Of a DNA stretch of 39,991 nucleotides, positions 10,639-16,253 are shown in pieces (the stretch's first letter is position 1; every line of letters begins with the position of its first letter). The stretch lies in contig JAGCNO010000065.1 in assembly GCA_017645905.1 (NCBI GenBank), forward strand, positions 1 through 39,991, given 5' to 3'. The notes beneath the pieces were generated by a model. It was not told where the DNA came from. It saw nothing but the letters and a program-made list of their open reading frames with translations, and did no database searches. The translations under genes were made by a program, and so were the position numbers. This stretch comes from Prevotella sp. Lineage in GTDB: Bacteria; Bacteroidota; Bacteroidia; Bacteroidales; Bacteroidaceae.

Positions 10639-10943
10639 CAGAAGCGCAGCATGTAGTACATCAATGCCGCAAAAGCCAGTAGCAGATACGAGCAGCCCTT
10701 CCAAATCTTTCCGAACACATAGCACGCAACAAGCAGCAACACCACAATGATGATATCGCTCATGCGGAAACGGATGGGCTGGTAGTCCATCATCCCCTCG
10801 TTCAGGAATTCTGAAGGGTCACCACCGCGAGCGGCACGCCCACCCACATAGTCGTCATCATCCTGTGCCCAAAGCTGTATTTTGTTCAAGAACAAGAACA
10901 TTAGGAAATACAGTCTCAGGAGTATTTGCTCTGCCTTTTGCAT
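10638..10943 (-). CDS. Small membrane protein of unknown function
   Basis: About 101 aa from ATG 10943. There is a hydrophobic N-terminal segment (LLRLYFLMFLFLN, possible signal peptide ending LWAQ), an acidic stretch DDDDYVGGRAARGG, and a second hydrophobic block of about 40 residues holding one or two membrane spans (IIIVVLLLVACYVFGKIW...LLLAFAALMYYM). A -7-like box (10960-10953, TACCTTTG on the minus strand) sits so close that the transcript would be almost leaderless, and it argues against the longer start at 10955. I do not recognise a family. Confidence 0.55.
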   Translation of the reverse strand: MQKAEQILLRLYFLMFLFLNKIQLWAQDDDDYVGGRAARGGDPSEFLNEGMMDYQPIRFRMSDIIIVVLLLVACYVFGKIWKGCSYLLLAFAALMYYMLRF

Positions 10944-11035
10944 TTCAGCGTGCAAAGGTAGGCAAAAATCTGTATAAAAAACGTCTTAGGGATGCTAAAA
11001 TACTATAAAATTGCGTTTTCCTCGCCATAAATTAC

Positions 11036-11043
11036 TATCTTTG
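11036..11043 (+). promoter_or_regulatory. -7 element of the tRNA-Arg gene
   Basis: TATCTTTG lies 15 bases before the tRNA. A TTG at 11011-11013 could be the -33 element, at 22 bases spacing. Confidence 0.5.
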
Positions 11044-11058
11044 CACCCAATTTCCGAA

Positions 11059-11130
11059 GCCCTGATAGTTAAATGGATATAACAAGGCTCTCCTAAAGCT
11101 TAGTTCCGGGTTCGATTCCCGGTCGGGGTA
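11059..11130 (+). tRNA. tRNA-Arg (anticodon CCT)
   Basis: A 72-base cloverleaf can be folded by eye. The acceptor stem is GCCCTGA with TCGGGGT (two G-T pairs), the D stem GTTA/TAAC, and the anticodon stem AGGCT/AGCTT with loop CTCCTAA, placing CCT at positions 34-36. The T arm is CCGGG-TTCGATT-CCCGG, and the discriminator base is A. No CCA is encoded. The gene's 3' end is the insertion point of the mobile element that follows, but its mature sequence is complete. Its original terminator now lies 5 kb away at 16211-16253. Confidence 0.9.
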
Positions 11131-12652
11131 CTGAGTGAGAAACTGCCTCGGATTTCTCACTTTCTTTTTCTCCGTACCCTCGTAACTTCTTGGTTTCTTG
11201 AAAGATAAGGTCAAGTACTTGGTTGTATGACTGAGTTCGATATTTTTCTCCGTCAAATACGATTTTTTGCGGAAACATCGAACTCAACAGCTTACACTTC
11301 ACTTTGACTGGTGCATCTTTCATAAATAATCTTAAATTTGCTATGATATTCACCGAATAATCGATTTTCTCTCTCAGCCCTTTGGTGTCTGTCTGTAGGA
11401 GTTCTATACGCCCTTGGAGTTCTTGTATTTGCTTCTCGTACCTCTCCGTAATACGTGTGTGAACCTCAGACGAAAGTGTGCCCTCACATAATCTATCGTC
11501 AGCACCATTGCGTAGAGCCTCAACCTTTTCTATCTCCTTACGTAGAGCCTCAACCTCCTTTTGAACGTCTCGTTTGTGTTCGCCTCGTAGGTCTTGCAGC
11601 ACTTCTGTATAGAGTTGTAACACCTCTTTGTTGGGTCTCAAACCTCCTACCCAAGTAGCGAACTTGTCGTTTACATAGTCGGCTGGTCTGCGAAGGTGCT
11701 TTCCATCGTGGCAACAGTTGTAGTATTTGTATTTGCCGCCCTTACCAGTGCTTGCGGCTCCTGTGATAGAGTGCCCACAGATGGGACACACTATGTACTT
11801 TCGTAGGAACAAGTCTGGGTCTATTGCCTTGCTCAACTTTGGCTCACTTTTGCGCTTACCGTCCAAGATTTCTTGTACCTTGTCGAAGGTCTCGGCATCA
11901 ATGATGGCTTGATGCTGTCCTCTGACTATCTGCTCTTCCTCATCCTTATAGGCTGGCACTCTTATTTGTCCTTTATAGAAGATGTTACGCAGCATCTTAA
12001 AGAATGTACCTCGTGGAATAGATGGGCATAGCCTACGTCTTATGCAGTTGGCTGTTTCAATGCCCTTCGCAACCTCTTGGAACGCTTGGCGTATGGCTTT
12101 TGCTTGAGTTTCGTCAATGTCAACGTATGGCTCTCCGCTCTCAGTTCTCTTGTTCACGTAGCCTCGTGGAGCTTTGTTTGAGCATCTGCCTTTGAGTAAC
12201 GTACCATGTATGCCGTCCTTTGTTCTACGTGAAATCTTGTCATCCTCTGCGTGTGCTATGCCGCAGTACATAGAGAGCATTAGCGACCACTCTGTACCGT
12301 TGAAGTCAATAGGTGACTCAATAGCGTTAATCTCAATTCCTAACTCGTCATAGAACTTGCGTTTATAGGTAAAAGCGAACTCAACATTACGAGAGTACCT
12401 ATCCCAACGTAGAAACAGCACCTTATTAACCTCGTGCCTATGTTTCTTACAGTAGTTGTAGATTTGCTTTAGTTTGGGTCTGCGCAAGTCAAAATGCTTG
12501 GCTGAATAGTCTTCTTTGTATGGCTTTTCTTCACCTACGATGTTGTAGTGATGATTATCGCAGTAGGCTCTCAGATACCTCTCTTGCATATCAAGTGAGC
12601 ATCCATCTGCTTGTTCGTCCGTACTAACGCGGCAGTATAAAATAACATTCAT
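11093..12652 (-). CDS. Large serine recombinase (integrase of the element)
   Basis: The 519-aa frame has the resolvase N-terminal domain with catalytic Ser10 in YCRVSTDEQ, an LRWDRYSRN block, the Recombinase domain (APRGYVNKR...), a zinc ribbon (CPIC at 289-292 with CC at 313-314) and a coiled-coil region of about 365-455. These are the parts of serine integrases that insert and excise elements. It sits at the left end and its last ten residues (RPGIEPGTKL) are only the antisense reading of the tRNA T-arm, ending at a TAG within the tRNA. Residues up to about 509 belong to the element. In the excised circle the frame would continue for 34 other codons (see 16097-16211). Confidence 0.9.
   Translation of the reverse strand: MNVILYCRVSTDEQADGCSLDMQERYLRAYCDNHHYNIVGEEKPYKEDYSAKHFDLRRPKLKQIYNYCKKHRHEVNKVLFLRWDRYSRNVEFAFTYKRKFYDELGIEINAIESPIDFNGTEWSLMLSMYCGIAHAEDDKISRRTKDGIHGTLLKGRCSNKAPRGYVNKRTESGEPYVDIDETQAKAIRQAFQEVAKGIETANCIRRRLCPSIPRGTFFKMLRNIFYKGQIRVPAYKDEEEQIVRGQHQAIIDAETFDKVQEILDGKRKSEPKLSKAIDPDLFLRKYIVCPICGHSITGAASTGKGGKYKYYNCCHDGKHLRRPADYVNDKFATWVGGLRPNKEVLQLYTEVLQDLRGEHKRDVQKEVEALRKEIEKVEALRNGADDRLCEGTLSSEVHTRITERYEKQIQELQGRIELLQTDTKGLREKIDYSVNIIANLRLFMKDAPVKVKCKLLSSMFPQKIVFDGEKYRTQSYNQVLDLIFQETKKLRGYGEKESEKSEAVSHSVPRPGIEPGTKL
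11125..11135 (+). repeat. Left attachment site core (attL)
   Basis: GGGGTACTGAG spans the last bases of the tRNA acceptor stem, the discriminator base and the next five bases. It is repeated exactly at 16201-16211. Confidence 0.75.
11135..11160 (+). terminator. Element-borne hairpin after the tRNA
   Basis: GTGAGAAA (11135-11142) and TTTCTCAC (11153-11160) pair perfectly and are followed on the plus strand by TTTCTTTTTCT. It lies inside the recombinase coding sequence on the other strand but could end the tRNA transcript in place of the native terminator that the insertion moved away. Confidence 0.55.
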
Positions 12653-12664
12653 AACTTGTAATTT

Positions 12665-12796
12665 TTAATTCTCATTATTGTTTAATTGGAGTTCACCTAT
12701 GAAATATAGGTATTCCCTTATGTTCTTTATTTCCTCTTCACTGTATTTCCTTTCTCCTTTATTTAGTATTTTCTTACAGTATTCAAGTGGTAACAC
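12665..12796 (-). CDS. 43-aa peptide, companion of the serine recombinase
   Basis: A GTG-initiated frame (12796 to TAA at 12665) encodes a 43-aa peptide containing LEYCKKILNKGERKYSEEE, then IREYLYFIGELQ. It ends 12 bases before the recombinase start. A TAA upstream in frame rules out a longer ATG version. The composition, with charged helices and a YSEEEIKNIREYLY pattern, looks like real protein, and similar short proteins beside site-specific recombinases are my recollection for Bacteroidota elements rather than a tested match. It could be a directionality or regulatory factor, but that is inference. The rest of 12653-12953 is AT-rich, with a -7 box (TATCTTTG, 12918-12911) and the end of a broken frame rich in KKEEVEALRAKG. 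Confidence 0.6.
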   Translation of the reverse strand: MLPLEYCKKILNKGERKYSEEEIKNIREYLYFIGELQLNNNEN

Positions 12797-12910
12797 TTTC
12801 TTATTTATTTACCGTGCATCTTGAAAGACGCTTATTTTTCAGCCATACCTTTGGCTCGGAGGGCTTCCACCTCCTCTTTTTTAGTGACTTGGCCAAGTGT
12901 TCGAACATTG

Positions 12911-12918
12911 CAAAGATA
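12911..12918 (-). promoter_or_regulatory. -7 element for the 43-aa peptide and recombinase genes
   Basis: TATCTTTG on the minus strand would start a transcript near 12905 with a leader of about 110 bases to the GTG start at 12796. No clear -33 element is seen. Confidence 0.4.
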
Positions 12919-12953
12919 TAAAAAATATTTTAAAATTCCAAATTTTATTTAAA

Positions 12954-13580
12954 TTATTTTTCAATAAGACTTTGGCACTTGCGTATTGTGTTGACGCTTG
13001 TGTGCGTTATTTTACTGATGTTGCGGAGGCTGATGCCCTTACGAAGCAAGCGGATTTCCTCGGCATACTGTTCACGCATAGCCTCGTCAGATTTTTTGTA
13101 GCCCTCTTTACGTCCTACCTTACCGCCATTGGCTCGATAGTTCTTATATCCGCTCTCGACACGTTCACGAATGGTCTTGCGTTCCATACGTGCCACCTCG
13201 GCTAAGATGGTTATGAGGAACTGAGACATTGGATTGACCTCACCATCGGTGGTCAGTGTCTCGATACCATAGTTCTGAATGTAGAGGCTGATACCCAACC
13301 TGTTGAACTGTTCTATCACTTCCAACACTTGCAGCGTGTCACGTCCAAGGCGTGAGAGTTCTGTCACCGCCACCTTATTAATATTATGGGCTTGTACGTA
13401 GTCCACCATACGGCTCAGTTCTTTGCGCTCGGTATTCTTCTTGGCTCCGCTCACCTTCTCACAAAAGACAGCCTCAACGCTCCAACTATTACGCTGGGCG
13501 AGGGCGGTAAGTTCATTCACTTGACGGTCGTACTCTTGAATGCTGGTACTGACTCTGGCAAAGATGCAAATTTTATCCAT
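12954..13580 (-). CDS. Small serine recombinase (resolvase/invertase type)
   Basis: The protein is 208 aa from ATG 13580. A longer frame to 13613 would start inside the promoter box, so it is rejected. It has catalytic Ser11 in IFARVSTSIQEYDRQ, the VTELSRLGRD block, the AEVARMERKTIRERVESG linker and a C-terminal helix-turn-helix (LRKGISLRNISKITHTSVNTIRK), the full layout of the Hin/Pin/resolvase family. It may resolve replicated copies of the element or invert DNA, but no inversion sites are obvious. It is read towards the large recombinase and has its own promoter, back to back with the regulator. Confidence 0.9.
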   Translation of the reverse strand: MDKICIFARVSTSIQEYDRQVNELTALAQRNSWSVEAVFCEKVSGAKKNTERKELSRMVDYVQAHNINKVAVTELSRLGRDTLQVLEVIEQFNRLGISLYIQNYGIETLTTDGEVNPMSQFLITILAEVARMERKTIRERVESGYKNYRANGGKVGRKEGYKKSDEAMREQYAEEIRLLRKGISLRNISKITHTSVNTIRKCQSLIEK

Positions 13581-13610
13581 ATTTGATATATGCGTTAATT
13601 GATTACTCTG

Positions 13611-13711
13611 CAAAGGTACAAAAAAGTTAAGAAACAGCCAAACAATAATTGATTTATTTTTATAATAAACCTAAAATAATTTGTATTTTACGACAATTAT
13701 GACTACATTTG
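13611..13711. promoter_or_regulatory. Back-to-back promoters for the resolvase and the Cro/CI regulator
   Basis: On the minus strand TTTG (13642-13639) and TACCTTTG (13618-13611) are 20 bases apart. On the plus strand TTTG (13680-13683) and TACATTTG (13704-13711) are also 20 bases apart. Both fit the Bacteroidota consensus. The regulator transcript would have a leader of only about 10 bases. The 36 bases between the two -33 elements are a natural operator site for the regulator. Confidence 0.75.
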
Positions 13712-13726
13712 CAAAAAATTCATCGT

Positions 13727-14053
13727 ATGAGTAAGATATTGGCTGACAATGTGAGGAGGATATGCAAAGCACAGGGTAAACAGATGAAAGACCTTGCAGC
13801 GAGTATGGGGATAGACCCAGCATCATTGACGAGGGCACTGAACGGTAACGCTCGCCTTGACACAATTCAGAAAATAGCGACCGCCTTGGGTGTGTCATTG
13901 AAGAGTCTATTTGAGCCGATGGATGATGTCGAGGGCTTCATCCGCATACGTGGAAAGGCGTATCAGTTCAACAGCAGAGCAGAGTTAGATAAGTTGCTAA
14001 ATAATGAAGATGAAGTAAAACGACAGGAGGGAAACAACTATGACAGAGTATGA
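13727..14053 (+). CDS. Cro/CI-type (XRE) transcriptional regulator
   Basis: From ATG 13727 the protein is 108 aa. The N-terminal helix-turn-helix reads [20 protein letters not shown], then [20 protein letters not shown] and [18 protein letters not shown], a classic XRE domain covering about residues 5-65. The C-terminal part ([22 protein letters not shown]) is short and may help pairing. It probably represses its own and the divergent resolvase promoter, controlling the element's state. The final codons overlap the acetyltransferase gene by 14 bases. Confidence 0.88.
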
Positions 14054-14642
14054 GAAATGTATGGCTGGTGAATACTACGATTGTCATTCACCAGAGTTTA
14101 TTGAGGGTAAGGCAAGAGCGTCGAATTGGTGTACAAAGTATAACGCTATTCCCTATGCTCAGCGTTCGGTACGCAGGAAGATGCTTGAAGAACTCTTTGG
14201 AGCGATAGGTACAAACGTAAGTGTAGGTGATGGGTTTACCTGTGGCTTTGGAGTTAACATATATGTTGGTTCTAACGTGTCAATCAATATGAACTGCACC
14301 TTGATAGATTGCAACCGCATTACCATTGGTTCTAACGTACTCATTGCTCCTTGTGTTCATATTACGACCGCCACACACCCTGTAGAACTTGAAGATAGAT
14401 TGACTCCTAACTGGTCACCAGATACAGGTGAATACTTTTGGAGAACTTATGCCCTACCTGTAACCATTGAGGATAATTGTTGGATTGGGGCGAACGTTGT
14501 CATTCTTCCTGGGGTGACAATTGGTGCTGGCACAGTGATTGGTGCTGGCTCTGTTGTGACAAAGGATATACCAGCCAATGTCGTAGCAGTTGGTAATCCT
14601 TGTAGGGTCATAAGAGAAATAAATCGTAAAGATAACATATAA
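14040..14642 (+). CDS. Maltose/galactoside O-acetyltransferase family protein
   Basis: The 200-aa protein has the N-terminal maltose acetyltransferase block ([19 protein letters not shown]), left-handed beta-helix hexapeptide repeats ([11 protein letters not shown] to [27 protein letters not shown]) and the ITTATHPVE motif with the likely catalytic His. It transfers acetyl from acetyl-CoA to a sugar hydroxyl. AGGAGG at 14025-14030 is an unusually strong ribosome binding site for this group. It is the one metabolic cargo gene of the element and follows the regulator in the same transcript; it may alter a surface saccharide or detoxify a sugar analogue. Confidence 0.9.
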
Positions 14643-14683
14643 GTTATCAAGATTATCTTTTAAGTTAGAATGATACAAAAAAG

Positions 14684-14723
14684 ATGTATCAATGATTTCA
14701 TTTTATTGATTTCATTGATACAT
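14684..14723. terminator. Two-way terminator between acetyltransferase and rep genes
   Basis: ATGTATCAATGA (14684-14695) and TCATTGATACAT (14712-14723) form a perfect 12-bp stem followed by TTTTTAATTT. It separates two convergent genes. Confidence 0.75.
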
Positions 14724-14740
14724 TTTTAATTTGACACGCT

Positions 14741-14791
14741 ACCCCTATATTTACTAAGGAATATGTGATTTGTGACATATTTCGTAGGGGT
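14741..14791. repeat. Nested inverted repeats next to rep, possible replication or transfer origin
   Basis: The outer arms ACCCCTA (14741-14747) and TAGGGGT (14785-14791) enclose inner arms AATATGT (14760-14766) and ACATATT (14775-14781). The structure lies within 15 bases of the 3' end of the rep gene. Nested cruciforms of this size are typical of nick sites for rolling-circle Rep proteins; assignment is inference. Confidence 0.4.
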
Positions 14792-14804
14792 GGTTGTTAT
14801 AATC

Positions 14805-15749
14805 CTATGAGCGTCCTAACAGATGCTTCCAACTGGCATCCATTTTACGACTCTGAAAACGTATAACACTCCCAAGGTAATGAAAGAACATACCTTCGAG
14901 AACAGCCTCATCGAATAGAATGAGAGGTGTGTATTGGATGCCTATACGCTCGACATAATTCTTGATGTCCTCTGCGTTTAGATGTACCTCTGTGCGATAG
15001 AGTTTCTTGGGGTTGCCGTAGTAGTTGAGTATATACTGCTTGTCTGATGAGTTCTTGATTTCCGCTACCTTGTCGTAGGTTAGTACAGTTATGCCCTTAC
15101 TCTTGTCCTTGATGGCGTTGCGTTGCTTGATGTTCACCGTTTGATATTTGCTTTGATTGTTGAGGCTACCACTTGCAGGATAATTGATTTCTGGCCTGTC
15201 TTCATCTCTATCTGTGACACGCTTGCCGTTCAAGATGGTTATGACGTTCTTGTTGTGGAGCAACTTTTTGACAACCTTGCTGATATTGAATGGTGTGTCA
15301 AGTGCGAGGTCAAGACTCGTCACGTTATGGAACTCCAGCCCAAGTCTCTGCTCAATGTAGGTCAGAAAATAGATTTCTTTTGAGTAGAGAGTCTCGTTGT
15401 TGAGGCTGAGCCAAACCTTACGCAGCCCATTTGTGTGCGTGTTACTCTGCTCGTCACCTCGTGCGAGATTGAATTTCAGATGTCCGAACTCTATATCACG
15501 TGTGCCATTGTCCAATCTAATGACATAGACGTTCTCAAAATATCTTCCCTCAGTTCTATATAATCTAAAGTTGCTTTGGCTTTCATCTTCTATGTCGTTC
15601 ACATCTAAACGCTCACCCATTTCAAGGTGGCTGAGTTGTTCAAAGTAGTAAGGATGCACGACCTCATAGCAGATGGTCCCTGCATCAAGTTGAATTGGTC
15701 TGTTACATACTCGTTTCATCGTCTTGGTTATTACTTTCATTATTTTCAT
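14805..15749 (-). CDS. Rolling-circle-type replication initiator (Rep_trans-like)
   Basis: The protein is 314 aa, or 304 if it starts at ATG 15719, which would cut the overlap with the next gene to 17 bases. SLDLALDTPFNI, VLTYDKVAEI and LYRTEVHLN resemble the conserved D-x-A-x-D, Y-D-K-x-x-E and R-x-E-x-x-L blocks of the Rep_trans / replication initiation factor family (PF02486). These proteins nick one DNA strand through a tyrosine. The match is by pattern only and moderate. Its presence in an integrated element suggests the excised circle can replicate. It is transcribed towards the acetyltransferase gene and follows a small basic protein gene. Confidence 0.65.
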   Translation of the reverse strand: MKIMKVITKTMKRVCNRPIQLDAGTICYEVVHPYYFEQLSHLEMGERLDVNDIEDESQSNFRLYRTEGRYFENVYVIRLDNGTRDIEFGHLKFNLARGDEQSNTHTNGLRKVWLSLNNETLYSKEIYFLTYIEQRLGLEFHNVTSLDLALDTPFNISKVVKKLLHNKNVITILNGKRVTDRDEDRPEINYPASGSLNNQSKYQTVNIKQRNAIKDKSKGITVLTYDKVAEIKNSSDKQYILNYYGNPKKLYRTEVHLNAEDIKNYVERIGIQYTPLILFDEAVLEGMFFHYLGSVIRFQSRKMDASWKHLLGRS

Positions 15750-15894
15750 TTGGGCGATATGGTATCGTAGCCCAATACTGACGCATTGCGTTACTAATAG
15801 CTTGTTTGTGGCTGTCGCTAAAGCTGCGACCCTTCAAACTTTGTGAGATACGCTTCTTGGTATCGTCACGCAAATCTCGAAATTGTCTTTTCAT
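15703..15894 (-). CDS. Small basic protein with NUMOD3-like motif
   Basis: The 63-aa protein carries ISQSLKGRSFSDSHKQAISN and AMRQYW, which resembles the short DNA-binding NUMOD3 motif of homing nucleases, while its end (NENNESNNQDDETSM) is polar. It overlaps the start of the rep gene, so both are probably made from one message and it may help Rep bind DNA. That role is inferred only from position. Confidence 0.6.
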   Translation of the reverse strand: MKRQFRDLRDDTKKRISQSLKGRSFSDSHKQAISNAMRQYWATIPYRPNENNESNNQDDETSM

Positions 15895-16055
15895 ACGTCT
15901 TAGTTTTAATATAAATAGTAGATTAGTTCAAAAAAGTGGGTATAGTAAAGAATTTTTTTTGACAACATAGCTGCACTATTCAGGGAAAACAGTTGTATGC
16001 CTACTATGCAGTAAGTATAAGAAGAAGTGCAAGGTTACATAAAGACAAGTAAACA
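15895..16055. other. AT-rich non-coding stretch of the element
   Basis: No protein-like frame is seen on either strand. The stretch contains A/T runs and short imperfect repeats such as CTACTAT and GTATGCCTACTATGCAG. It probably holds the promoter of the small protein and rep, and could hold a transfer or replication site. Confidence 0.4.
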
Positions 16056-16079
16056 AAAGCCCCAATGCTGGGGGGCTTT
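16056..16079 (-). terminator. Terminator that would end the recombinase gene in the circular form
   Basis: AAAGCCCC (16056-16063) pairs with GGGGCTTT (16072-16079). On the minus strand it is followed by TGTTT. It lies 17 bases after the stop at 16097 of the displaced recombinase tail and no gene in the integrated state ends here. Confidence 0.65.
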
Positions 16080-16096
16080 CCAATGATTTATGCTGT

Positions 16097-16211
16097 TTAG
16101 GTTATACTATACGTGGGCTTTATTGGGTCTGGAATATACTCACGTAATGCCCAAATCTTGTCAAGGTCTCTAAGAAAGGAGTTCGAGAATAGTTGCGTTG
16201 GGGGTACTGAG
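16097..16211 (-). pseudogene. Displaced 3' end of the serine recombinase gene
   Basis: When the two 11-bp cores are joined, the recombinase frame passes through the core (SVP) and continues with 34 codons to TAA at 16099-16097. The new tail includes SFLRDLDKIWALREYIPDP and ends YSIT. It is rich in charged and aromatic residues, unlike the antisense-tRNA tail now in place, and is followed by a terminator. The full protein would be 543 aa. The frame is fixed by the core repeat, not chosen. A 34-codon open frame has perhaps a one-in-five chance of arising at random, so the terminator is an important second line of evidence. Confidence 0.6.
16201..16211 (+). repeat. Right attachment site core (attR)
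   Basis: GGGGTACTGAG repeats the sequence at 11125-11135 exactly. Host sequence resumes here with the terminator of the tRNA gene. Confidence 0.75.
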
Positions 16212-16253
16212 GCGGGGAAAGACGAAAAATCTTTCCCCGCCAGTATTTTTTTT
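16211..16253 (+). terminator. Original terminator of the tRNA-Arg gene, cut off by the insertion
   Basis: GGCGGGGAAAGA (16211-16222) and TCTTTCCCCGCC (16230-16241) form a perfect 12-bp stem followed by TATTTTTTTT (16244-16253). No gene reads into it from the left on the plus strand in the present arrangement. Without the element it would begin four bases after the tRNA. Confidence 0.85.

Follow-up and report, generated by a model that had tools for sequence, protein, structure and literature searches.

Introduction

In the streptococcal rumA integrative and conjugative elements (ICEs), the attachment (att) site lies within the gene for the single serine integrase; the excised form differs in length and C-terminus, and the authors expect functional differences (PMC4701971). 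Myxococcus phage Mx8 carries attP inside its integrase gene, and integration remakes the C-terminus of the enzyme and alters its activity or specificity (PMC6070905, PMC4701971). Here we describe a related arrangement in Prevotella sp. (GCA_017645905.1, contig JAGCNO010000065.1), where the window, by which we mean the whole stretch of 39,991 nucleotides that was analyzed, holds an element integrated at the 3' end of a tRNA-Arg(CCT) gene. The element's large serine recombinase (LSR) gene is divided at its own attachment site, which places the final codons of the gene (the tail) at the opposite end of the element.

Like the rumA ICEs, the window element holds its att site in the LSR gene, which gets a new 3' end on integration; unlike theirs, whose target is the protein gene rumA, the targets here are tRNA genes. 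The excerpted rumA ICE descriptions mention no conserved tail or replacement terminator, whereas the tail described below is conserved, in frame, in many elements and across many tRNA targets. Mx8 shares with the window element an attP in the integrase gene and a C-terminus renewed on integration, but its integrase is a tyrosine recombinase in which 112 residues are replaced by 13. The archaeal SSV-type 'suicidal' integrases also have attP in a gene that is split on integration, but these are tyrosine recombinases whose catalytic part is severed from the N-terminal part, the pieces being described as inactive (PMC8371274). In the window LSR, unlike these, only a C-terminal segment is removed and both Pfam domains stay. 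Some archaeal SSV-type integrases use tRNA genes. The statement of a review that only archaea have recombinases that disrupt their own gene (PMC8371274) does not fit the tail exchanges of Mx8, the rumA ICEs and the window group; integrase C-termini made by integration are already known from the first two, and the window group is a widespread variant of these. In mycobacteriophage BPs, attP lies in the repressor gene and integration removes an ssrA-like tag; the affected gene there, unlike the window LSR gene, encodes a repressor, and what is lost is a tag for degradation (PMC4557955).

Among serine integrases, those of LI/A118, phiC31 and Bxb1 resemble the window LSR in their Recombinase and zinc-ribbon parts. 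To our knowledge, none of their genes is split by attP. Their direction is set by a separate directionality factor. A Riemerella island (PMC6764341) was considered as a further comparison and rejected, as it has a tyrosine integrase. In the open literature, we found no account of tRNA-targeting serine recombinases that, as a group, have a conserved tail belonging to the circle only; later island databases may include uncommented cases.

Results and Discussion

A Recombinase Gene Divided at Its Own Attachment Site

The element is bounded by an 11-nt direct repeat, GGGGTACTGAG, which overlaps the 3' end of tRNA-Arg(CCT) and recurs at the far end (Table 1). The tRNA gene is left whole by the insertion at its 3' end, and this, with the repeat at the far end, is the pattern of a tRNA-targeted genomic island. 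The LSR open reading frame (ORF; 12652 to 11093, minus strand) crosses the core and stops antisense in the tRNA gene, its last ten residues, RPGIEPGTKL, being antisense tRNA. At the far end, the minus strand from 16201 to 16097, read in the frame that joined cores would give, encodes PTQLFSNSFLRDLDKIWALREYIPDPIKPTYSIT, a run of 34 codons followed by a stop. Joining the cores yields an LSR of 543 aa, compared with 519 aa in the integrated form, in which the tail lies ~5 kb away from the LSR. The ORF, tRNA calls and translation bear out the original prediction that integration splits the gene into a 519-aa form with ten antisense-tRNA residues and leaves a 543-aa form to the joined arrangement. 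They support the view that the element's own attachment site divides the LSR gene and that the protein encoded by the circle would be longer and have another tail. The in-frame tail is more than chance, because it is conserved as protein in other elements and because the LSR frame enters it in all 21 elements scored (see below).

Pfam, NCBIfam and PHROGs agree on the serine recombinase class of the LSR. Both of its Pfam domains, an N-terminal Resolvase catalytic domain (PF00239, E 2.4e-23) and a Recombinase domain (PF07508, E 3.5e-9), are retained in the 519-aa form. In a 20-row alignment of LSRs, R8 and S10, which we take to be catalytic residues, are invariant, as are C289, C292 and C313, by analogy the zinc-ribbon cysteines.

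The prediction also gave the core as 11 bp. Both copies are present in the window, but six other tRNA-Arg elements share just GTACCCC or AGTACCCC (7-8 nt), and by this comparison part of the window's 11-nt match is host sequence that agrees by coincidence. The exact empty site of the source strain was not found; the flank matches that were fetched lacked a tRNA. A tRNA-Arg(CCT)-like match occurred in 29 of the 40 genomes searched; of 20 loci examined, three have an LSR (source genome included) and 17 do not, and the source strain's flank is repeated at none of these 17.

The Tail as a Conserved Protein Segment

At the far ends of related elements, the tail follows the consensus LFSNxFLxDLDKIWxLRxxIPDP, of which 37 distinct DNA versions were collected; a profile built from 12 tails matched 35 of the loci under study at that stage (E up to 1e-3; seeds and two duplicates included). 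The segment is hydrophobic-patterned and probably helical. Over codons 6-22, which lie past the attP arm, the ratio of nonsynonymous to synonymous diversity (pN/pS) for all tails is 0.25 in the LSR frame versus 1.00 and 1.63 in the other frames, pooled values that serve as a guide only, since pS is near saturation among all tails and pairs are non-independent. The corresponding values for the Arg/Glu subgroup (10 sequences) are 0.04 in frame versus 2.65 and 4.45. Tail diversity is concentrated in third positions, and a column shuffle reached the observed value 0 times in 20000 for all tails and once in 20000 for the Arg/Glu subgroup. By these codon-level measures, the tail is shown to be under purifying selection as a protein. 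Its stop falls 103 to 175 nt past the core start among the scored elements, and tail length is thus variable. The replacement tails of integrated LSRs are probably filler, because they differ in sequence, length and phase.

These features bear on a switch of the BPs kind, in which the longer form would be tagged for degradation, leaving the integrated form as the only stable one. The geometry is the same as in mycobacteriophage BPs (PMC4557955), yet the C-terminal ends of the tails are variable and the conserved part is internal, and we consider this explanation very improbable.

A Spacing Rule for the Attachment Sites

We chose 22 loci in which LSR, nearby tRNA and tail lie on one contig, excluding duplicates (L086, L104) and tRNA-less loci (L091, L094). 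The core search was confined to the tRNA 3' end; unrestricted matches that landed on TCGAA itself falsely gave out-of-frame calls. The LSR runs through the core into the tail in frame in 21/21 scored elements, whose targets are tRNA-Arg(CCT), Leu(CAA), Leu(CAG), Glu(CTC), Met(CAT) and His(GTG). The 22nd locus, L093, was unscored: it has no 5-nt core in range, and another rule gave two candidates, one of them in frame with the tail. For L023 and L034, further 5-nt core candidates existed. Relatives at other integration sites had been expected to keep the tail or show the same split, and they do: elements inserted in tRNA-Leu, Met, Glu and His genes retain an in-frame tail at their far ends, and one relative is unsplit (see below).

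A TTCGA matching that of the tRNA T-loop recurs on the attP arm, 5 nt further out than its attB counterpart in 18 of the 21 elements and 6 nt further out in L032, whereas no TCGAA is present on the attP side of L023 and L024. This offset, observed on one arm only, resembles that of LI integrase, for which zinc-domain motifs lie 5 bp apart between attB and attP (PMC3783163). The core of L032 has a different reading phase, and an attP spacing 1 nt longer restores the frame. L034 has its tRNA end in the same altered phase, and its first TTCGA lies 13 nt earlier, in another codon phase; the protein motif LF..KFLEDLDKLW is intact despite the shift (the core of this element is just 6 nt, and a second TTCGA lies further on). 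Because L032 and L034 keep the protein frame despite a shift in core phase or motif, these data argue for selection on the tail protein, beyond the DNA site alone.

A second scan ignored the frame and required a core of 5 nt and the T-loop spacing rule; it covered 26 further loci, three of them without tRNA or T-loop. Candidates were obtained in 12 of 23 elements, and in nine of these 12 (L053, L093 with one of its two candidates, L106, L109-L113 and L150) the LSR frame entered the tail pattern: hydrophobic-x-x-D-hydrophobic-x-x-two hydrophobic-x-hydrophobic, drawn up after the tails were known. Most of these loci had been inspected earlier. The pattern occurs in 37/37 first-clade tails versus 47/20000 random reads. 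Ranking of far-end candidates by match length was rejected, some being wrong (the top matches of L053, L034 and L023), and a ranking in which the tail pattern itself raised the score is given no weight as a test. At two far-end candidates of L113, the attP arm is separated from the conserved segment of the tail region by in-frame inserts that are repeated (e.g., SLSQMSKGELACTLPWREIEGEAN).

Conservation of the far end solely as an attP DNA site, with an incidental open frame, would account for the overlap of the first tail codons (FSN) with the TTCGA attP motif and for the tail kept in LSR-less elements. Yet the codons past the attP arm evolve as protein, L032 and L034 retain the protein frame where core phase or DNA motif has shifted, and a similar segment occurs in a distant LSR clade; we regard this account as extremely unlikely.

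Terminators at the Two Ends

The hairpin near the tRNA gene (11133-11171) is encoded within the last LSR codons before the core. A tRNA-strand hairpin at the LSR end has a z-score of about -2 or below in 26 of the 27 stretches folded (exception, L014), and at least 5 T occur in the 8 bases past the last pair, as folded, in 17 of the 27. As judged from this folding, the element can supply a replacement terminator for the tRNA from within the LSR coding end. A likely native terminator (16211-16241) now stands on the far side, as expected when an element enters at the 3' end of the tRNA gene.

The hairpin after the tail stop was the decisive clue of the original prediction, according to which it serves no gene in the present arrangement. 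The hairpin exists (16080-16055), but it loses that weight, since terminator-like hairpins lie within 180 nt past the tail in only 8/36 distinct tails versus 7/180 control windows. Nor is it without a candidate gene: an ORF outside the element (17279 to 16446, minus strand) reads toward it.

That one region also carries the attP arm and the terminator fits an explanation by compact packing only, in which an attP placed in the LSR 3' end also gives the tRNA terminator, the tail aids the LSR to the same degree in either direction, and the enzyme tolerates being without it, with no regulation involved. However, the pN/pS of 0.25 (0.04 in the subgroup), on a segment that is joined only before integration, suggests use in that state, and we find packing alone unlikely.

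Distribution, an Unsplit Copy and Remnants

In the genus set, the LSR was found in 11/398 genomes (E 1e-30), the tail by itself in 11/398 (E 0.01) and both in seven. Of the four tail-only genomes, G009 and G307 have remnants, and in G241 and G363 the contig breaks off at the tail, on the side where the LSR would lie. Among the four LSR-only genomes, the contigs of G078 and G101 break off toward the far end of the element and G273 has only a C-terminal LSR fragment; G118 has an LSR without a tail match and neither a contig-end cut nor a fragment to explain it. LSR or tail matches were found in 44/399 genomes of the family set (E 1e-5), 36/374 of the order set (E 1e-5) and 34/316 of the phylum set (E 1e-10), and phage and plasmid records gave only distant LSRs (<60% identity). 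The named relatives are metagenome-assembled genomes of Prevotella and other Bacteroidales, several from rumen or gut samples; judged by these matches, the element group is large and, by its named relatives, belongs to Bacteroidota.

The LSR 3' end lies inside an antisense tRNA in 74 of 100 distinct related loci fetched, which are best search matches and not a random sample. By LSR identity, this ending is found in 29/39 loci at 45% or above, 21/30 at 30-45% and 24/31 below. The targets span about 19 tRNA anticodons (the list has 20, with two tRNA-Leu genes overlapped at a single locus). The LSR 3' ends of L066, L077, L091, L092 and L094 enter one common sequence (SVPR.GT.HRNH.K.KE....YSVHF) in which no tRNA was detected; it could be either another recurrent target or a nested element.

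A second element of the same genome (L053, contig C75, about 10789-15978) carries a small recombinase 92% and an orf314 88% identical to those of the window element, but its LSR is only about 25% identical to the window LSR; it targets tRNA-Pro(CGG) and shares both the split and the tail pattern, with a similar probable helix. Since the same backbone here bears a different LSR in a different tRNA gene, LSR and target appear exchangeable as a module. In L189/L212, from a single-contig genome, the LSR, an intact attP-like stretch and a matching tail form one open frame of 537 codons, with a GTAGC core-like sequence, TTCGA at +21 and 26 residues after the core start. We regard it as a natural unsplit copy whose core is assigned by analogy.

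Partial elements were also seen. L100 (about 173-1375), a 1.2-kb element in tRNA-Leu(CAA), keeps the terminator end and the tail end, with no LSR found, and is likely a non-autonomous derivative. L047 has two tails 7 kb apart (2305 and 9329), with no LSR in the stretch examined, the second followed by an LSR-end-like remnant. In L032, an LSR C-terminal remnant of another subgroup (1238-1511) adjoins the far-end tail; its frame, as we read it, does not match the tail, and it is a possible trace of tandem insertion.

A Proposed Role for the Tail

We propose that the LSR gene carries its own attP near its 3' end, so that in the circle LSR, attP and tail would be one gene (543 aa). Recombination of attP with attB at the tRNA 3' end would leave the recognized LSR domains whole and move the last 34 codons away by the length of the element, the end of the integrated LSR then being dictated by the antisense strand of the tRNA gene. 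An attP arm, with its T-loop-like TTCGA, also lies in the first codons of the tail, and a replacement terminator for the tRNA in the LSR codons before the core. The circle would make a tailed enzyme and the integrated copy an untailed one. By docking on the LSR close to its coiled coil, the tail may favor attP x attB recombination by the circle-made enzyme; the tail-less LSR may be an excising or a quiet form.

Two published observations bear on such docking: Olorunniji et al. promoted attL x attR recombination by attaching directionality factors C-terminally to phiC31 and Bxb1 integrases, and they note that in LI integrase the C-terminal end is close to the coiled coil (PMC5737554). By analogy, this suggests that a natural segment tethered at the LSR C-terminus is well set to influence direction. 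We infer that the tail is used in the unintegrated state, because selection maintains it even though the two parts of the gene are joined in unintegrated or tandem copies only. It is likely, in our judgment, that the tail has an effect of some kind on LSR activity or direction. With slightly less assurance, we also favor the fuller proposal that it serves the LSR while attP is intact and that the integrated state has a different LSR, the likeliest effect being on activity or direction. A two-way toggle, in which the tailed circle enzyme integrates and the untailed enzyme excises without a separate directionality factor, is a more speculative extension that we put forward tentatively.

Overlapping with this proposal, and modeled on one made for the archaeal suicidal integrases, is a self-limiting integrase: the tail would be needed for activity, integration would silence the LSR, and release would need tailed LSR from a new or tandem copy. 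Loss of a conserved protein part often costs activity, which counts for this alternative. It would also fit the unconserved replacement tails, the traces of several copies at one place (L032, L047, L113), the trans rescue discussed for split archaeal integrases (PMC8371274) and the report that the integrated Mx8 integrase is less active (PMC4701971). On the other hand, the Pfam-recognized domains persist in the 519-aa form, and many elements would be trapped, yet they are spread over many genera and tRNA genes; we see a self-limiting enzyme as possible but doubtful.

Several observations weigh against a tail that serves the LSR of the circle. No excised circle was found, as IMG/VR scans with the LSR, the tail and the junction pattern of the tRNA-Arg subgroup gave no relative, and a tail search of phage and plasmid collections gave no match. 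Cores of only 5 nt, as in three of the 21 elements (L019, L023, L089), are weak alone. In the frame-blind scan, the frame of L156 runs into a similar stretch that does not match the pattern, L097 and L220 have candidates without the tail pattern, and no far end was found in 11 of the 23 elements within the DNA examined. Among the 100 related loci, 25 LSRs do not overlap a detected tRNA and one more runs off its contig; the LSR of L027 stops 16 nt short of a tRNA, and the distant LSRs L188, L193, L198, L199 and L202-L204 end without a tRNA or clear tail. Elements without an LSR (L049, L100 and the two tails in L047) retain the tail sequence, which could reflect recent loss or some DNA-level role. 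Finally, the tail could be required just for the enzyme to fold or to be stable.

Other Features of the Element

The remaining genes are listed in Table 1. No Pfam or PHROG family was matched by the 314-aa ORF (orf314), which is 75% identical to its relative in L052 and 88% to that in L053; it may resemble replication initiators. The O-acetyltransferase-like cargo was considered as a resistance gene and is not so called, its Vat score being 53.8 against a cut-off of 300.

Table 1. Positions, strands and supporting evidence for the element, its target and the motifs discussed
Feature	Position	Strand	Basis or remark
Integrated element	11125..16211	n/a	Core repeats at both ends; length 5076 (~5.08 kb) between core copies
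tRNA-Arg(CCT), integration target; 3' part is attB/attL half	11059..11131	+	ARAGORN; Rfam RF00005 gives 11059-11130
Core copy, tRNA end (GGGGTACTGAG)	11125..11135	n/a	Repeat; overlaps tRNA 3' end
Core copy, far end (GGGGTACTGAG)	16201..16211	n/a	Repeat
T-loop TTCGA (TCGAA on minus strand), attB-side motif	11111..11115	n/a	20 nt from core start
Matching TTCGA (TCGAA on minus strand), attP arm	16182..16186	n/a	25 nt from core start; within FSN codons of tail
LSR, integrated form, 519 aa	11093..12652	-	ORF; Pfam Resolvase and Recombinase; PHROG 95 integrase
Orphan tail, 34 codons and stop; would continue the LSR frame in the circular form	16097..16201	-	Translation; conservation; frame
Hairpin and T-run; can terminate tRNA transcript when integrated	11133..11171	+	Minimum free energy -12.9, z -3.0, 6 T in next 8
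Likely native tRNA terminator, displaced to far side of element	16211..16241	+	
Terminator-like hairpin after tail stop	16055..16080	-	Possible 3' end of LSR message in circle; not generally conserved
Second, small serine recombinase (resolvase/invertase type)	12954..13577	-	Pfam Resolvase; relatives in L051-L053
Helix-turn-helix (Cro/C1-type) regulator	13709..14053	+	Domain and PHROG searches
Cargo, maltose/galactoside O-acetyltransferase-like protein	14040..14642	+	Below NCBIfam cut-offs
orf314, 314-aa ORF common to related elements	14805..15749	-	ORF; homologues in relatives
63-aa ORF, weak NUMOD3-like match	15703..15894	-	Family search; below curated cut-off

Implications

The direction of serine integrases is a central question, to which the usual answer is a separate directionality factor. 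A conserved C-terminal segment tied to the state of the DNA would offer matched pairs of LSR enzymes. The T-loop spacing rule suggests how one LSR group could reach about 19 tRNA anticodons; it helps to locate attP and attB for many uncharacterized recombinases, which is useful for genome engineering. The two-way toggle, if true, would be a self-resetting direction switch held in DNA topology, in which each state makes the enzyme for leaving it.

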